Shown in pieces: positions 1,268 through 54,316 of a DNA stretch of 64,000 nucleotides. Location: assembly GCF_017377505.1 (NCBI RefSeq), contig NZ_JAFREN010000004.1, positions 62,001 to 126,000 of the forward strand, written 5' to 3'. The position numbers and the translations under genes were made by a program. Position 1 is the stretch's first letter. Each line of letters opens with the position of its first letter. This stretch comes from Enterococcus sp. DIV0212c (GTDB taxonomy: Bacteria > Bacillota > Bacilli > Lactobacillales > Enterococcaceae). Below the pieces are notes generated by a model. It had not been told where the DNA came from and searched no databases. It worked only from the letters and a program-made list of their open reading frames with translations.

Positions 1268-1685
1268 TTTCTCCCTCATCTTCCGGGAATAATTCATCAA
1301 AATCTGGTTCAGGTAGTTTTTCTGGGACTACTGCTACTACGTGAATATTGACTTCCACTAAATCGATATCTGTCATAAACAACACTTGCTGTTTCACACG
1401 ATCTTGCATTTCTAAAGCGACTTTAGGTACTGAAATACCATAATTTAAGTAACAGTAAATATCAACTTTAAGACCTTCTTCTTCAGCTCTTAAATAAACG
1501 CCTTTACCGTGAGCAGCACGGCCAAGAAATTCTGTTACATTATTAGCAAATGTTCCACGCATACCGTATACGCCATCTACTTTAGATGCTGCAATACCAA
1601 TAATGACTTCAATTACTTCCGGTGCGATAACAATCTCACCTAAAGCATCTTTTGTATTGATCACTAGATTTTTTTCTTCAGTCAT
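1260..1685 (-). CDS. Asp23/Gls24 family protein (YqhY-like)
   Basis: 141-aa cytosolic protein of the Asp23/Gls24 (DUF322) family. It shows the typical pattern GEIVIAPEVIEVIIGIAAS near the N-terminus and an acidic C-terminal tail. The start is chosen because AAGGAGGATTAAA precedes this ATG; an upstream in-frame ATG has no such site and runs into repeat DNA. Its place directly before nusB matches B. subtilis yqhY, whose loss has been linked to fatty-acid synthesis control. The exact role is not known. A hairpin repeat sits immediately upstream in what should be its 5' untranslated region. Confidence 0.92.
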   Translation of the reverse strand: MTEEKNLVINTKDALGEIVIAPEVIEVIIGIAASKVDGVYGMRGTFANNVTEFLGRAAHGKGVYLRAEEEGLKVDIYCYLNYGISVPKVALEMQDRVKQQVLFMTDIDLVEVNIHVVAVVPEKLPEPDFDELFPEDEGENE

Positions 1686-1707
1686 TTTAATCCTCCTTAT
1701 AATAAAA

Positions 1708-1820
1708 GCGTAGCGGACTCGTTCAGCTCTGACAGGAAAATAGGAAAATATGACTGAGGTGTTTTTTACCTCATTCATATTTTATCTTTTTCCCGAAGAG
1801 CTAGTCCACGAAGCTAGATA
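1708..1820. repeat. Hairpin-forming intergenic repeat, copy 1
   Basis: About 113 bp that starts with GTAGCGGA and ends with GCTAGAT. It folds on itself: AGCTCT pairs with AGAGCT, GAGGT pairs with ACCTC around a T-rich loop, and GGAAAA pairs with TTTTCC. The same plan is seen at 37946-38056 and three times at 42227-42580. A degenerate stretch continues to about 1930. It lies between the peptidase gene and the Asp23-family gene, just upstream of the latter's ribosome site. No open frame in it looks coding. Confidence 0.7.
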
Positions 1821-1979
1821 ATACATTGTAACAACGTTCAGTTCTGACAAAAAAATCAGAGAATTCCGTTTTTCGTCATAATTCATTTACCTACCTAAGT
1901 TGTCATTCCTCCCTAGTTTATCATTAAACAGCTTGTTTCGCTACCAAAAAAACTATGAGAAAATGAGTCAAAAACATTT

Positions 1980-3044
1980 TTATAATATTATTAATTCTTT
2001 AGGTGAGTGAGTCAAGACACGGTTGCCTTCTTTGGTAATCAATAAATCATCTTCGATTCTAACACCGCCAAGACCTGCTAAATAAATACCAGGTTCATCA
2101 GTAATCACGTTACCTGGAACAAATTGTTGATCTGCTCTAAAGGAAACATTTGGACCTTCATGAATTTCTAAGCCGATGCCATGACCTGTGCTATGACCAA
2201 ACGCTTCGCCATATCCGTAAGAAGCAATATGATCACGAGCAATTGCATCCAGCTGAATACCAGTTAATCCTGGTTTTGCTTCGTCTAACACTTTTAATTG
2301 TGCCTCTAGAACGATTTGATAAATGTCTTTCAGTTTACTATCTGGTTCACCGATCGCAAATGTCCGAGTCATATCAGAAACGTATCCTTGATAATAACAA
2401 CCAAAATCTAACGTAATCAAATCACCTTTTTCGATGATTTTCTCACTTGCAACACCATGAGGCATTGCGGAGCGAACGCCACTTGCAACGATTGTTTCAA
2501 AAGATACACCAGAAGCTCCTAAAGATCGCATATAAAAATCTAATTGGTTCGCAATTTCAATTTCTGTCATGCCCGGTTTGATAACTGTTAAAATGTGCTT
2601 AAAACCAAGATCTGCAATGCTGCAGGCTTTTTCGATGATCGCAATTTCTTCTTCATCTTTAACTTCACGTAACTCTTCGATTAAACCTGCTACAGGAATC
2701 AAATCGCAAGGTGTGATTTCTTCTAGTAAACTATATTCCGCAAAACTAACGTGTGTTTCTTCAAACGCTAAATTAGCTAATTGCTCTTTTTCTGCGATTG
2801 CTACAACTTCATCATAGATTGGACCAGTATTTTGAATGATTTCAAAGCCTTGCGCTTGCTCTGCTGCTTGTTCTGTATAACGAAAATCAGTTATAAAAAA
2901 CGCCTTATCTAAAGTAATTACAGCCAATCCAGTTGTTCCTGTAAAATTTGTTAAATAACGTAAATTATATGGGCTTGTAATCAGAAAACCTGAAAGATCA
3001 TTTTTTTTCATTAACGCTCTTAATTTATTTACTCTTACCATCAT
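1980..3044 (-). CDS. M24 family Xaa-Pro peptidase (YqhT/PepQ/PepP-like)
   Basis: 354-aa cytosolic metallopeptidase that removes residues next to proline or cleaves Xaa-Pro dipeptides. The N-terminal creatinase-like domain (about 1-130) is followed by the pita-bread catalytic domain. The metal ligands are visible: two Asp in LDFGCYYQGYVSDMTRTF, His in GHSTGHGIGLEIHE, Glu in DEPGIYL and Glu in RIEDDLL. The start is the first ATG of an ATGATG pair about 9 nt after GAAGG; earlier in-frame codons are less well placed. In many Firmicutes efp follows this gene; here it does not. Dipeptidase and aminopeptidase P cannot be told apart by eye. Confidence 0.93.
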   Translation of the reverse strand: MMVRVNKLRALMKKNDLSGFLITSPYNLRYLTNFTGTTGLAVITLDKAFFITDFRYTEQAAEQAQGFEIIQNTGPIYDEVVAIAEKEQLANLAFEETHVSFAEYSLLEEITPCDLIPVAGLIEELREVKDEEEIAIIEKACSIADLGFKHILTVIKPGMTEIEIANQLDFYMRSLGASGVSFETIVASGVRSAMPHGVASEKIIEKGDLITLDFGCYYQGYVSDMTRTFAIGEPDSKLKDIYQIVLEAQLKVLDEAKPGLTGIQLDAIARDHIASYGYGEAFGHSTGHGIGLEIHEGPNVSFRADQQFVPGNVITDEPGIYLAGLGGVRIEDDLLITKEGNRVLTHSPKELIIL

Positions 3045-6730: not shown

Positions 6731-6845
6731 GCTATACAGCACCTCCTTCTTCTAGACTTAGACTCGCCATCCCAAGTGATGACTATTGTCATACTTACAA
6801 TACTTGTTCTGTGCGGTTGTAGCTGTGGAGTCCACAATTACAACA
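6731..6845 (-). promoter_or_regulatory. Structured leader of rplU (probable L21 leader)
   Basis: The untranslated leader is about 115 nt and contains GTGGACTCCAC and other inverted repeats. Firmicutes rplU operons often carry an L21 leader RNA; this region is placed and sized for it, but I assign it on position and hairpins rather than a full consensus match. Confidence 0.55.
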
Positions 6846-37945: not shown

Positions 37946-38056
37946 GTGCTATCTAACTTTACGGACTTCTCGGAAAAATGCTGAAGATTGAATGAAGCAA
38001 AAATCGTCTCAGTTGATTTTATTTGTTTTTAAGTTGAAACTGGTCAAGTCCGCTAC
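37946..38056. repeat. Hairpin-forming intergenic repeat, copy at the second ABC operon
   Basis: About 111 bp in the opposite orientation to copy 1: its complement begins GTAGCGGACTTG and ends GTTAGATAGCAC. The end segments match those at 1708-1820 and 42461-42580 (TTTTTCCGAGAAG near one end). It sits about 23 nt before the ABC gene. A partial unit precedes it (about 37905-37945). Confidence 0.6.
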
Positions 38057-38079
38057 ATTTTTAAATCAAGGAGGAACCT

Positions 38080-41575: not shown

Positions 41576-41618
41576 CCTCAAACTTCCTTGGGATGTAGGA
41601 AAGTTTGAGGTTTTTTTT
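41576..41618. terminator. Bidirectional terminator between ABC pair and folT
   Basis: 14-bp stem CCTCAAACTT... with complement at 41597-41610, and eight T on the plus strand. Confidence 0.9.
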
Positions 41619-42153
41619 ATTTAAAATTGGTTAATGATCTATTCAAAAATTGCTTATAAGGAACTTTATTCCCTAAATAATAGGTAGCAACTACTTGTAT
41701 CGGGAAAAAGATGATATTCTTCACGATTCTAGGCGCCCACCAAGCGAGATTGGAAATATTTACACCATACATTAAACCAAGCCATAACGGTGTTAGGAAC
41801 ATGTGAATAATCAAGGTAACTGATAAAGTCGCCATAATTACTCTTTTCCAAGTTAATTCTTTCTTAAAATAGAAGAAACCATAAATCGCACCAGAGATAA
41901 ACGCATTCAACGTAAATCCAGGGAAATAAGGTCCTTTAGGAAATAACAGCATACCGACTGTATCCGCTACGGCACTACCGATTCCTGTCCAGAATGGGCC
42001 AAAAAGAATTCCCATCAATGATTCTGGAATAAAGGTCAAACTAATTCGTAAAAATTGGGTTTCAAACGAAATAAATCGTGTAAAAACCACCATTAACGCA
42101 ATCAATAAACTCATCAGCGTAATGGTCCGTGTATCAATTTTTCTTTTCTTCAT
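41617..42153 (-). CDS. folT: FolT, folate-specific ECF transporter S component
   Basis: 178-aa membrane protein with six helices that binds folate and docks on the shared EcfT-EcfA module (not in the window). FISFETQFLRISLTFIPESLMGILFGP and GMLLFPKGPYFPGFTLNAFISG are typical of FolT. The start is the ATG after AGAGGAG; an earlier ATG touches the site. The assignment is supported by the split THF riboswitch in its leader. It has its own promoter behind mgsA. Confidence 0.92.
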   Translation of the reverse strand: MKKRKIDTRTITLMSLLIALMVVFTRFISFETQFLRISLTFIPESLMGILFGPFWTGIGSAVADTVGMLLFPKGPYFPGFTLNAFISGAIYGFFYFKKELTWKRVIMATLSVTLIIHMFLTPLWLGLMYGVNISNLAWWAPRIVKNIIFFPIQVVATYYLGNKVPYKQFLNRSLTNFK

Positions 42154-42185
42154 TTCTAGCATCTCCTCTAAGAGCTGCTACACAA

Positions 42186-42216
42186 AATATGCAGCGAATG
42201 CGAAAACAAAACCGCG
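42186..42216 (-). promoter_or_regulatory. 3' half of the split THF riboswitch
   Basis: On the minus strand it reads CGCGG, a U-rich P2 strand, then CGCAUUCGCUGC. This aligns with the 3' part of the known aptamer (CGCGG...GCAUCCGCUCC). CUG pairs with CAG at 42653-42655 (P1), CAUUC pairs with GGAUG of loop 3 (pseudoknot, one G-U), and UUUUC pairs with the P2 strand of the 5' half. Directly after it GCUGC can instead pair with GCAGC near the ribosome site, a possible switch. Confidence 0.75.
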
Positions 42217-42226
42217 AATATAGAAA

Positions 42227-42340
42227 AGTGGAACGAACCGCTTATCTCTTTTGAAAATTAGGAAAGTAGCATTGAAACGTTCTTTGTTTCACTGATACTT
42301 TATCTATTTTCCTAAAGAGATGGTTCGTGCAACTAGATCA
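42227..42340. repeat. Hairpin repeat A inside the folT leader
   Basis: Starts GAAAAGTGGAACGAA, ends CAACTAGATCA. Internal pairs: AACC/GGTT, ATCTCTT/AAGAGAT, TAGGAAA/TTTCCTA, GAAAC/GTTTC around a short loop. Confidence 0.75.
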
Positions 42341-42460
42341 TAGAAAAGCGGAATGAAGCGTTTAGCCTTTTAGAAAGTTAGGAATCTGAACGTGGAACGC
42401 CTTTTGTTCCATGTGAAGATTATCTACTTTCCTCAAAGGCTGCTTCATGCAACTAGATCA
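42341..42460. repeat. Hairpin repeat B inside the folT leader
   Basis: Starts GAAAAGCGGAATGAAGC, ends CAACTAGATCAC. Internal pairs: GAAGC/GCTTC, AGCCTTT/AAAGGCT, TGGAAC/GTTCCA around GCCTTTT. Confidence 0.75.
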
Positions 42461-42580
42461 CTGAAAAGCGGAATGAACTCATTCAGCTTCAACTGAAAAA
42501 TAGGGAATACTGATTGTGGCGCTTTTTACCACTAGCATTATTCATCTTTTTTCCGAGAAGCTAGTTCATACAGCTAGATC
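42461..42580. repeat. Hairpin repeat C inside the folT leader
   Basis: Starts GAAAAGCGGAATGAAC, ends CAGCTAGATC. Internal pairs: GAACT/AGTTC, AGCTTC/GAGAAGCT with mismatch, GTGG/CCAC around a T-rich loop. Confidence 0.75.
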
Positions 42581-42597
42581 ACTTTTCTCATATATTC

Positions 42598-42660
42598 TTC
42601 GTCCGAAAGGCAACATCCCATCCTTTCGGCACTTAACGCTTTATTTCCTACTCTGTTTTA
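42598..42660 (-). promoter_or_regulatory. 5' half of the split THF riboswitch
   Basis: On the minus strand: CAGAGUAG, a P2 strand GAAAUAAAGCG, the conserved GUUAAGUG, hairpin P3 (CCGAAAGG/CCUUUCGG) whose loop has AUGGGAUG, then ACGAAG. This matches the tetrahydrofolate riboswitch consensus. The matching 3' half lies about 380 nt away beyond three repeats. Confidence 0.85.
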
Positions 42661-42681: not shown

Positions 42682-42710
42682 AATATAGCATATTCCCCAC
42701 ATTGCTGCAA
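42682..42710 (-). promoter_or_regulatory. Promoter of folT
   Basis: TTGCAG (42705-42710), 17-bp spacer, extended -10 TGCTATATT (TATATT at 42682-42687), on the minus strand between mgsA and the riboswitch. Confidence 0.8.
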
Positions 42711-54110: not shown

Positions 54111-54282
54111 ACAAAACCTGAGAGATTCGTCTTCGATTTGAAGAGTTGCTCCTTCGGTGCTTTCGCTTTCCAGAGTGATGTCCAATTACGGTCCTTTGTA
54201 CCTGAGATCTTCATAATCAATCGTTTGCGTCACTTGATTATTTATTCCTTCGGTGCTATGACTAGTCTCTCCCGTAATTTTC
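54111..54282 (-). promoter_or_regulatory. Tandem glycine riboswitch
   Basis: Two aptamers in series. Aptamer 1 (about 54192-54282) has GGGAGAGAC, CACCGAAGGA and CUCAGGUACAAAGGACCG. Aptamer 2 (about 54111-54187) has GGACA...CUCUGGA, GCACCGAAGGAGCAA and CUCUCAGGU. These are the conserved gcvT-type motifs in the correct order. Glycine should raise gcv expression by preventing the terminator. Confidence 0.95.
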
Positions 54283-54316
54283 TTCCATCTAATCTAATTT
54301 TATATATCTGCAATAC

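Follow-up and report, generated by a model that had tools for sequence, protein, structure and literature searches.

An apparently intact folT tetrahydrofolate riboswitch with tandem copies of a dispersed hairpin repeat in its P4 arm in Enterococcus

Introduction

Upstream of folT in Enterococcus sp. DIV0212c the two halves of a tetrahydrofolate (THF) riboswitch aptamer lie on the minus strand with repetitive DNA between them, raising the question of whether the gene is still preceded by a working riboswitch, and of what the intervening DNA is. The locus is part of a stretch of 64,000 nt (contig NZ_JAFREN010000004.1, positions 62,001 to 126,000), which was analysed as a whole and is called the window here. 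An initial annotation of the window described the aptamer as split by three hairpin repeats with its core pairings kept, and proposed that the aptamer could be intact, with the insert as one long closed arm. We have followed up this proposal by comparing folT leaders across enterococci, and other species show the arrangement too.

Results

A THF-I aptamer with an expanded P4

Both aptamer halves are found within positions 42186-42660, where they were first placed, and the gap between them measures 381 nt in the window leader (L060), as reported. In all the sequence features open to testing, the leader is a THF-I riboswitch: P1, P2, P3, the P3-loop pseudoknot and a P4 between CGAA and the P2 3' strand are all recognisable, the conserved THF-I junction letters are present, and folT lies directly downstream, so that the aptamer occupies a folate-gene position (Table 1). 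The 5' half runs from the P1 5' strand CAG through the P2 5' strand and the P3 hairpin, whose loop supplies the pseudoknot partner GGAUG, to GACGAA before P4, and the first C of the 3' half closes P4. The folT start was chosen by eye as the in-frame ATG at 42153, whose spacing from AGAGGAG is better.

Table 1. Features of the folT leader, and other arrays of the repeat, in window coordinates.
Feature	Position	Strand	Basis or detail
Likely promoter	42682..42710	-	TTGCAG, 17 nt, TATATT, TG before -10; by eye
THF-I aptamer 5' half (folT)	42598..42655	-	RF01831 match, 40.6 bits
P4 base 5' arm GAAUAUA and array 5' end (UGA, GAAAAGUG)	42580..42597	-	By-eye pairing with 42216-42230
Repeat unit 1	42465..42578	-	Unit model R1, 121.6 bits, positions 1-114 of 114
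Repeat unit 2	42345..42457	-	R1, 96.3 bits
Repeat unit 3	42225..42337	-	R1, 106.5 bits
Array 3' end CACUUUUC and P4 base 3' arm UAUAUUC	42216..42230	-	By eye, covariation
Aptamer 3' half	42192..42216	-	P2 3' strand, CAUUC pseudoknot partner, P1 3' strand CUG
Likely expression platform	42158..42195	-	Hairpin GCUGCAUA/UGUGUAGC, then hairpin covering Shine-Dalgarno AGAGGAG
folT, folate ECF transporter S component	41617..42153	-	ORF 41617-42162
Non-folT array	1705..1818	-	
Non-folT array	37952..38061	+	
76 further non-folT arrays in this genome (G000)			L234-L312 minus folT

A cmscan search placed RF01831 at 42657-42569 on the minus strand with 40.6 bits, above the cut-off of 36. In this match the alignment is correct for the 5' half only; the 3' half is forced wrongly into the repeat, and the true 3' half, CGCGG...CGCAUUCGCUG, sits past the gap. 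The RF01831 model has a hairpin, P4, at the site of the gap, truncated by a local end in the cmscan alignment. The gap is thus P4, an arm of the family model, and the aptamer has been expanded rather than cut at a random point; the insert does lie between the halves, but to call the aptamer split is an overstatement. The spacing of about 8 nt that had been expected between ACGAAG and CGCGG does not hold either, since P4 is anywhere between 9 and 428 nt long in the 67 family loci, out of 73, that fit our search pattern (the six off-pattern loci, L118, L125, L129, L131, L132 and L133, were dropped before counting, and several of the 67 duplicate a species that is present in two collections, with 42 distinct pairs of halves overall). 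Parsed leaders from outside the repeat-bearing clade have a P4 of 9-30 nt, or of 81 nt in the single case of L137; loci L052-L059, which are not enterococcal, were inspected by eye only. The window leader shares its helices, pseudoknot partners and position upstream of folT with other RF01831 leaders, and differs from THF-I leaders outside the clade in a P4 of 381 nt that holds three dispersed repeat units.

A second, uninterrupted aptamer nearer folT was found neither in a scan of the window nor in the 22 genomes of the genus, each of which has one RF01831 match (E up to 0.001). The match scores above the cut-off in 20 of these genomes and below it in two; because the covariance model misplaces the 3' half of an expanded aptamer, such switches score low. 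Elsewhere on the minus strand of the window are a glycine riboswitch aptamer (54179-54284) and a ribosomal protein L21 leader (6750-6828).

Conservation of the aptamer and of the P4 base

The preservation of P1, P2 and the pseudoknot noted for the window leader extends to its insert-bearing relatives: all 527 of 527 aptamer pair cells are kept in the repeat-bearing leaders of 17 species (P1 51, P2 221, P3 170, pseudoknot 85, all of them standard pairs). P1 and the pseudoknot are invariant in the counted leaders and so provide no covariation, their letters having been fixed in part by the search pattern, which all 22 genus genomes match; among the 17, every change in P2 and P3 is one-sided. Two-sided changes in these helices do appear in the 50 remaining parsed leaders, with 20 of 500 P3 cells unpaired, although in these leaders changes in the fixed parts of the pattern (CAGAGTAG, GACGAA, CGCGGT and CGCATTCGCTG) would be invisible. 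Pairwise divergence is 0.027 in the 5' half and 0.012 in the 3' half, where 24 of 25 columns are invariant across the 17 repeat-bearing species, compared with 0.479 at folT fourfold sites and 0.057 at folT codon positions 1 and 2.

These values bear on the alternative that the insertion broke the riboswitch, leaving folT free of folate control and the two halves as relics. The failure of cmscan to place the 3' half would fit such a loss, as would a core that is disturbed in the predicted folds of four of 14 leaders (see below), but the low divergence of the aptamer beside that of the fourfold sites, the complete retention of its pairs, and changes at the P4 base that preserve pairing make a broken switch very unlikely. 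A decayed riboswitch was accordingly rejected on the conservation of aptamer letters and pairs.

The closing stem proposed for the ends of the insert, 15 bp with a 3-nt bulge, can be seen by eye as GAAUAUA-UGA-GAAAAGUG paired with CACUUUUC-UAUAUUC. Its P4 base pairs in 111 of 119 cells across the 17 species, with A-U, U-A or G-C at position 2, A-U or U-A at position 3, U-A or C-G at position 4, A-U or G-C at position 5, and U-A, A-U or C-G at position 6. An arm pairs with its own partner at 6.53 of 7 positions, against 5.35 when arms are permuted between species, and none of 20,000 permutations gave a value as high; the permutation ignores relatedness, but the result also holds on the 10 distinct arm pairs (6.2 against 4.76, again with none of 20,000 as high). 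Covariation at the P4 base, together with the kept core pairs, supports the proposal of an intact aptamer with a long closed arm.

It could be objected that this stem is made of the ends of the repeat itself and is uninformative on the aptamer. The array ends do add an 8-bp stem of their own (GAAAAGUG/CACUUUUC), and the EFAR elements of enterococci reportedly keep pieces of a target stem at their ends. Repeat-free P4 stems are nevertheless present at the same site (GGAUAAG/CUUAUAC in L077, GGACAA/UUGUUC in L040), the stem persists in leaders without a complete unit (L064, L071, L075), it varies in sequence between repeat-bearing species while largely staying paired, and most other arrays end at Shine-Dalgarno sites, so that we regard an origin of the stem from the repeat as highly improbable. 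Selection at the RNA level on the aptamer core and P4 base in the clade appears to be the best explanation of these patterns.

The insert is an array of a dispersed repeat

The three hairpin repeats described in the insert are borne out by three full-length matches, of 96-122 bits, to R1, a covariance model of a hairpin of about 114 nt that was built from 25 units of this genome, these three among them. Apart from the aptamer, the insert has no match in Rfam at cut-off, and a consensus scan listed no intrinsic terminator or promoter on its transcribed strand. Unit 3 has 92-97% identity to the folT arrays of four other genomes (G020, G009, G010 and G001). The leader of 516 nt folds 5.5 s.d. below 100 shuffles, and as a BLAST query it has at least 52 matches in the genome, itself counted, with 40 of 81 candidates scored.

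In an alignment of 83 units, which was fitted to the hairpin model, 95.6% of cells pair and 26 of 29 pairs have two-sided changes; none of 500 shuffles reaches any of five measures, and pairing falls to 49-53% if the hairpin is slid by one base. The aptamer helices of the 42 distinct leaders contain 188 G-U, no A-C and 13 other non-Watson-Crick cells, and the hairpins of the 83 distinct units contain 67 G-U, 64 A-C and 41 other. Since selection on RNA tolerates G-U and rejects A-C, the aptamer helices look selected as RNA. The counts for the repeat suggest that complementarity between its arms is maintained on the DNA, through a process such as arm-to-arm correction or mobility by way of a hairpin. 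Their even ratio of G-U to A-C favours the reading of the array as a passenger and sets aptamer and repeat apart as two layers of a composite RNA.

At least 126 units are present in this genome (150 of 3,762 candidates scored, E up to 1e-4), which we grouped by hand into 79 arrays. Units are found in all 22 genus genomes and in at least 44 of 105 family genomes, with at most 35 candidates scored per genome; one unit, used as a query, gave no match on plasmids. In searches of the open-licence PMC literature we recognised no description attributable to the repeat family. Downstream of 67 of the 78 non-folT arrays, no more than 45 nt away and on the same strand, lies a Shine-Dalgarno-like motif together with a start codon and an open frame, the distance from array to Shine-Dalgarno having a median of 7 nt and a range of 0-43, and 167 of 4,000 random window positions, genes included, satisfy the same Shine-Dalgarno criterion (4.2%). 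The folT array is an exception, being located in P4 and away from folT's own Shine-Dalgarno.

An example of the usual position is the locus at window 1300-2300, where the gene after the array looks by eye like a member of the Asp23 family. Units lie upstream of the Shine-Dalgarno in L314, L315, L316, L318 and L325, and no unit precedes it in G017, G018 and G021. We note that L328, L329 and L330 have no unit before the same gene start, that L314-L327 carry whole or partial repeat sequence, and that several of the latter have a common extra stretch, AACACAGTGAATGAA...GCGGAACGTTGTTACC, which may be a further module or repeat. At another locus (L313, G000:C40:281600-282400) a T-box leader is followed after about 20 nt by a two-unit array and then by the next start codon. 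Among 20 repeat loci of 30 fetched, each taken with 1.5 kb on either side, no other Rfam RNA reached its gathering score.

Distribution and history in the genus

P4 is 36-428 nt long in 17 of the 22 genus genomes and 9-23 nt in five. Fourteen of the 22 have one to three complete units in a P4 of 140-428 nt, the 17 species comprising three with no complete unit, five with one, six with two (among them L076, which carries a further partial unit) and three with three. The P4 arms of the three species that have none are 36, 41 and 55 nt long with short repeat-like ends by eye, and look like repeat remnants. In a folT tree of 28 rows the 17 species with an enlarged P4 form one clade (support 98/99), and a single change accounts for the enlargement, against a mean of 8.3 with shuffled labels; the E. 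faecalis-like row falls outside every group and its placement is unsure. The history is most simply read as a single ancestral insertion followed by gain and loss of units. The sister genomes G006 and G013, which differ at 4 of 76 folT fourfold sites, have a P4 of 175 and 55 nt respectively, a difference of one 120-nt unit, and aptamers that are identical letter for letter.

The presence of an enlarged P4 in all 17 sampled species of the clade is also what would be seen if the array were a functional part of the switch, its length, its processing (e.g. by RNase III cleavage of the long hairpins) or a bound protein altering the manner or timing of aptamer closure, for example through a delay in making the 3' half. 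In 90 of 90 species pairs, moreover, similarity is higher between units than at fourfold sites (mean best match 81% against 52%, for pairs with a matching stretch of at least 90 nt and with a choice of best match that inflates similarity), which exceeds the expectation for a neutral passenger unless recombination refreshes the units, and closure of P2, P1 and the pseudoknot has to wait until 381 nt have been transcribed. We nonetheless consider a functional array unlikely, since the number of complete units varies from none to three and is zero in three species, the aptamers of G006 and G013 are the same despite the difference of a whole unit, and the repeat hairpins are without an RNA-type wobble bias.

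The 81-nt P4 of G022 (L137), a genome whose FolT is identical to that of E. faecalis in PDB 4z7f over residues 2-180, may be a separate case. This arm has GTTCAGCTTTTTA near its 3' end, as in the repeat units. No second copy of the 81-nt insert was found in G022, and there was no unit-model match among 35 candidates scored and no match to the DNA of one unit among 8 candidates scored. A 13-base pattern with one mismatch allowed has 37 sites in G022, against 15 for a reversed control, and the contexts of those sites revealed no second array.

Predicted folding of the leader, and its flanking signals

In equilibrium predictions, made without ligand, pseudoknot or co-transcriptional folding, the ensemble of the window leader has 15.5 half-to-half pairs, 6.1 of 7 P4 base pairs and 0.03 cross-talk bases, against means of 6.5, 1.2 and 25.4 with 12 shuffled interiors. 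In 11 of the 14 leaders with inserts of at least 140 nt, the aptamer halves are better paired with the native insert than with at least 11 of the 12 interior shuffles. The predicted folds of the other three are without clear shielding of the aptamer, 2 of 12 shuffles equalling the native insert in L066 and 6 of 12 in both L072 and L074. A disturbed core is predicted for these three and for L069, with half-to-half pairs of 2.1 in L072 (P4 base 0.05 of 7), 6.5 in L074, 7.0 in L069 and 7.6 in L066 (P4 base 0.03). During transcription, P3 and the hairpin of each unit could already fold while the 3' half is still to be made.

The sequence of the platform region is kept in relatives (a divergence value for it is inflated by a one-base indel and was left unused), and the downstream hairpin region is alike, by eye, in the window leader and in enterococcal folT leaders with a plain P4. 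The first platform hairpin, GCUGCAUA/UGUGUAGC, has CUG in common with P1, and the platform hairpins may have a switching role. An anti-sequester exchange was dropped as a model of the platform because the hairpin that competes with P1 and the one over the Shine-Dalgarno are both present in the minimum-energy fold. Their co-occurrence also counts somewhat against the explanation favoured below, in which P1 would affect access to the Shine-Dalgarno. Upstream of the aptamer, the likely promoter is absent from the consensus-scan list, and its -10 region reads TG[CT]TATATT in 18 of 22 leaders and TGCTATAGT in the remaining four.

Discussion

The explanation that we favour, and hold to be probable, is that the folT leader is an intact THF-I riboswitch, that its P4 was colonised by a dispersed tandem repeat in the ancestor of the 17 species, and that the array is a passenger. 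The array is most likely an expansion segment that folds on itself and is tolerated by a switch that still works. A tandem hairpin repeat would have entered the variable arm P4 once, in the ancestor of the 17 sampled Enterococcus species, and the array would then have gained and lost whole units of about 120 nt, to reach its present range of zero to three complete ones.

Transcription would start near the kept -10 element just upstream; P3 would fold first, the units next, one by one, and the 3' half last, and the P4 base, P2, P1 and the pseudoknot would close once the 3' half arrives. The self-folding units would form a branched arm above the P4 base, so that the halves could meet as they do with a short P4. 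Repression by folate is typical of folT leaders, and folate binding would here stabilise P1 and the pseudoknot, change the hairpins beside the Shine-Dalgarno and reduce FolT synthesis. We infer ligand binding, switching and its direction, the exchange of platform hairpins and the passenger status of the array from the sequences compared.

In searches of the open-licence PMC literature, covering titles and abstract openings, we recognised no repeat inside a riboswitch aptamer, which is weak evidence of absence. The nearest precedent that we found is the pneumococcal trp operon, where, according to PMC3049150, a BOX element lies between two T-boxes in one long leader whose parts are thought to fold independently. 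As described there, a modular hairpin repeat is likewise combined with structured leader RNA, a likeness in modularity only; the streptococcal BOX element stands between two complete T-boxes, whereas the folT repeat stands inside one aptamer, between its halves. The T-box leader with an array at L313 resembles the pneumococcal composite.

EFAR elements are reportedly modular and insert into DNA with stem-loop potential, part of whose stem they retain; entry into stem-loops in this manner would explain P4 as a target. The repeat described here is, like EFAR, dispersed, palindromic and enterococcal, but the unit model has no copy among the 35 candidates scored in G022, which leaves identity with EFAR as no more than a possibility. 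EFAR elements of enterococci are named among bacterial MITEs in PMC3733652. As to MITE features, the ends of the folT array pair, and unit-free sites exist at folT and at window 1705-1818; no target duplication was established. A further likeness is to the expansion segments of 5S rRNA, which as presented in PMC7812874 also place extra RNA on a conserved structure, but the folT addition, unlike those segments, is a tandem dispersed repeat that changes in unit number.

A more speculative and quite improbable idea is that the array acts as a timer by copy number, with the count of units in P4 setting how long the aptamer stays open during transcription, or that its hairpins are cut to leave a two-piece switch held together by P2 and P4. 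If that were true, gain and loss of units between species would tune folate control. On the favoured explanation of a tolerated passenger, the vitamin-sensing switch probably still works, with an unusually long and changeable arm. The folT leaders of this clade then amount to a natural experiment on the capacity of an aptamer, in which 36 to 428 nt of foreign RNA, in amounts that differ even between sister genomes, have been placed in one arm with the core untouched, and they make aptamer modularity, the delay of co-transcriptional folding and the fate of inserted repeats directly testable in natural leaders.
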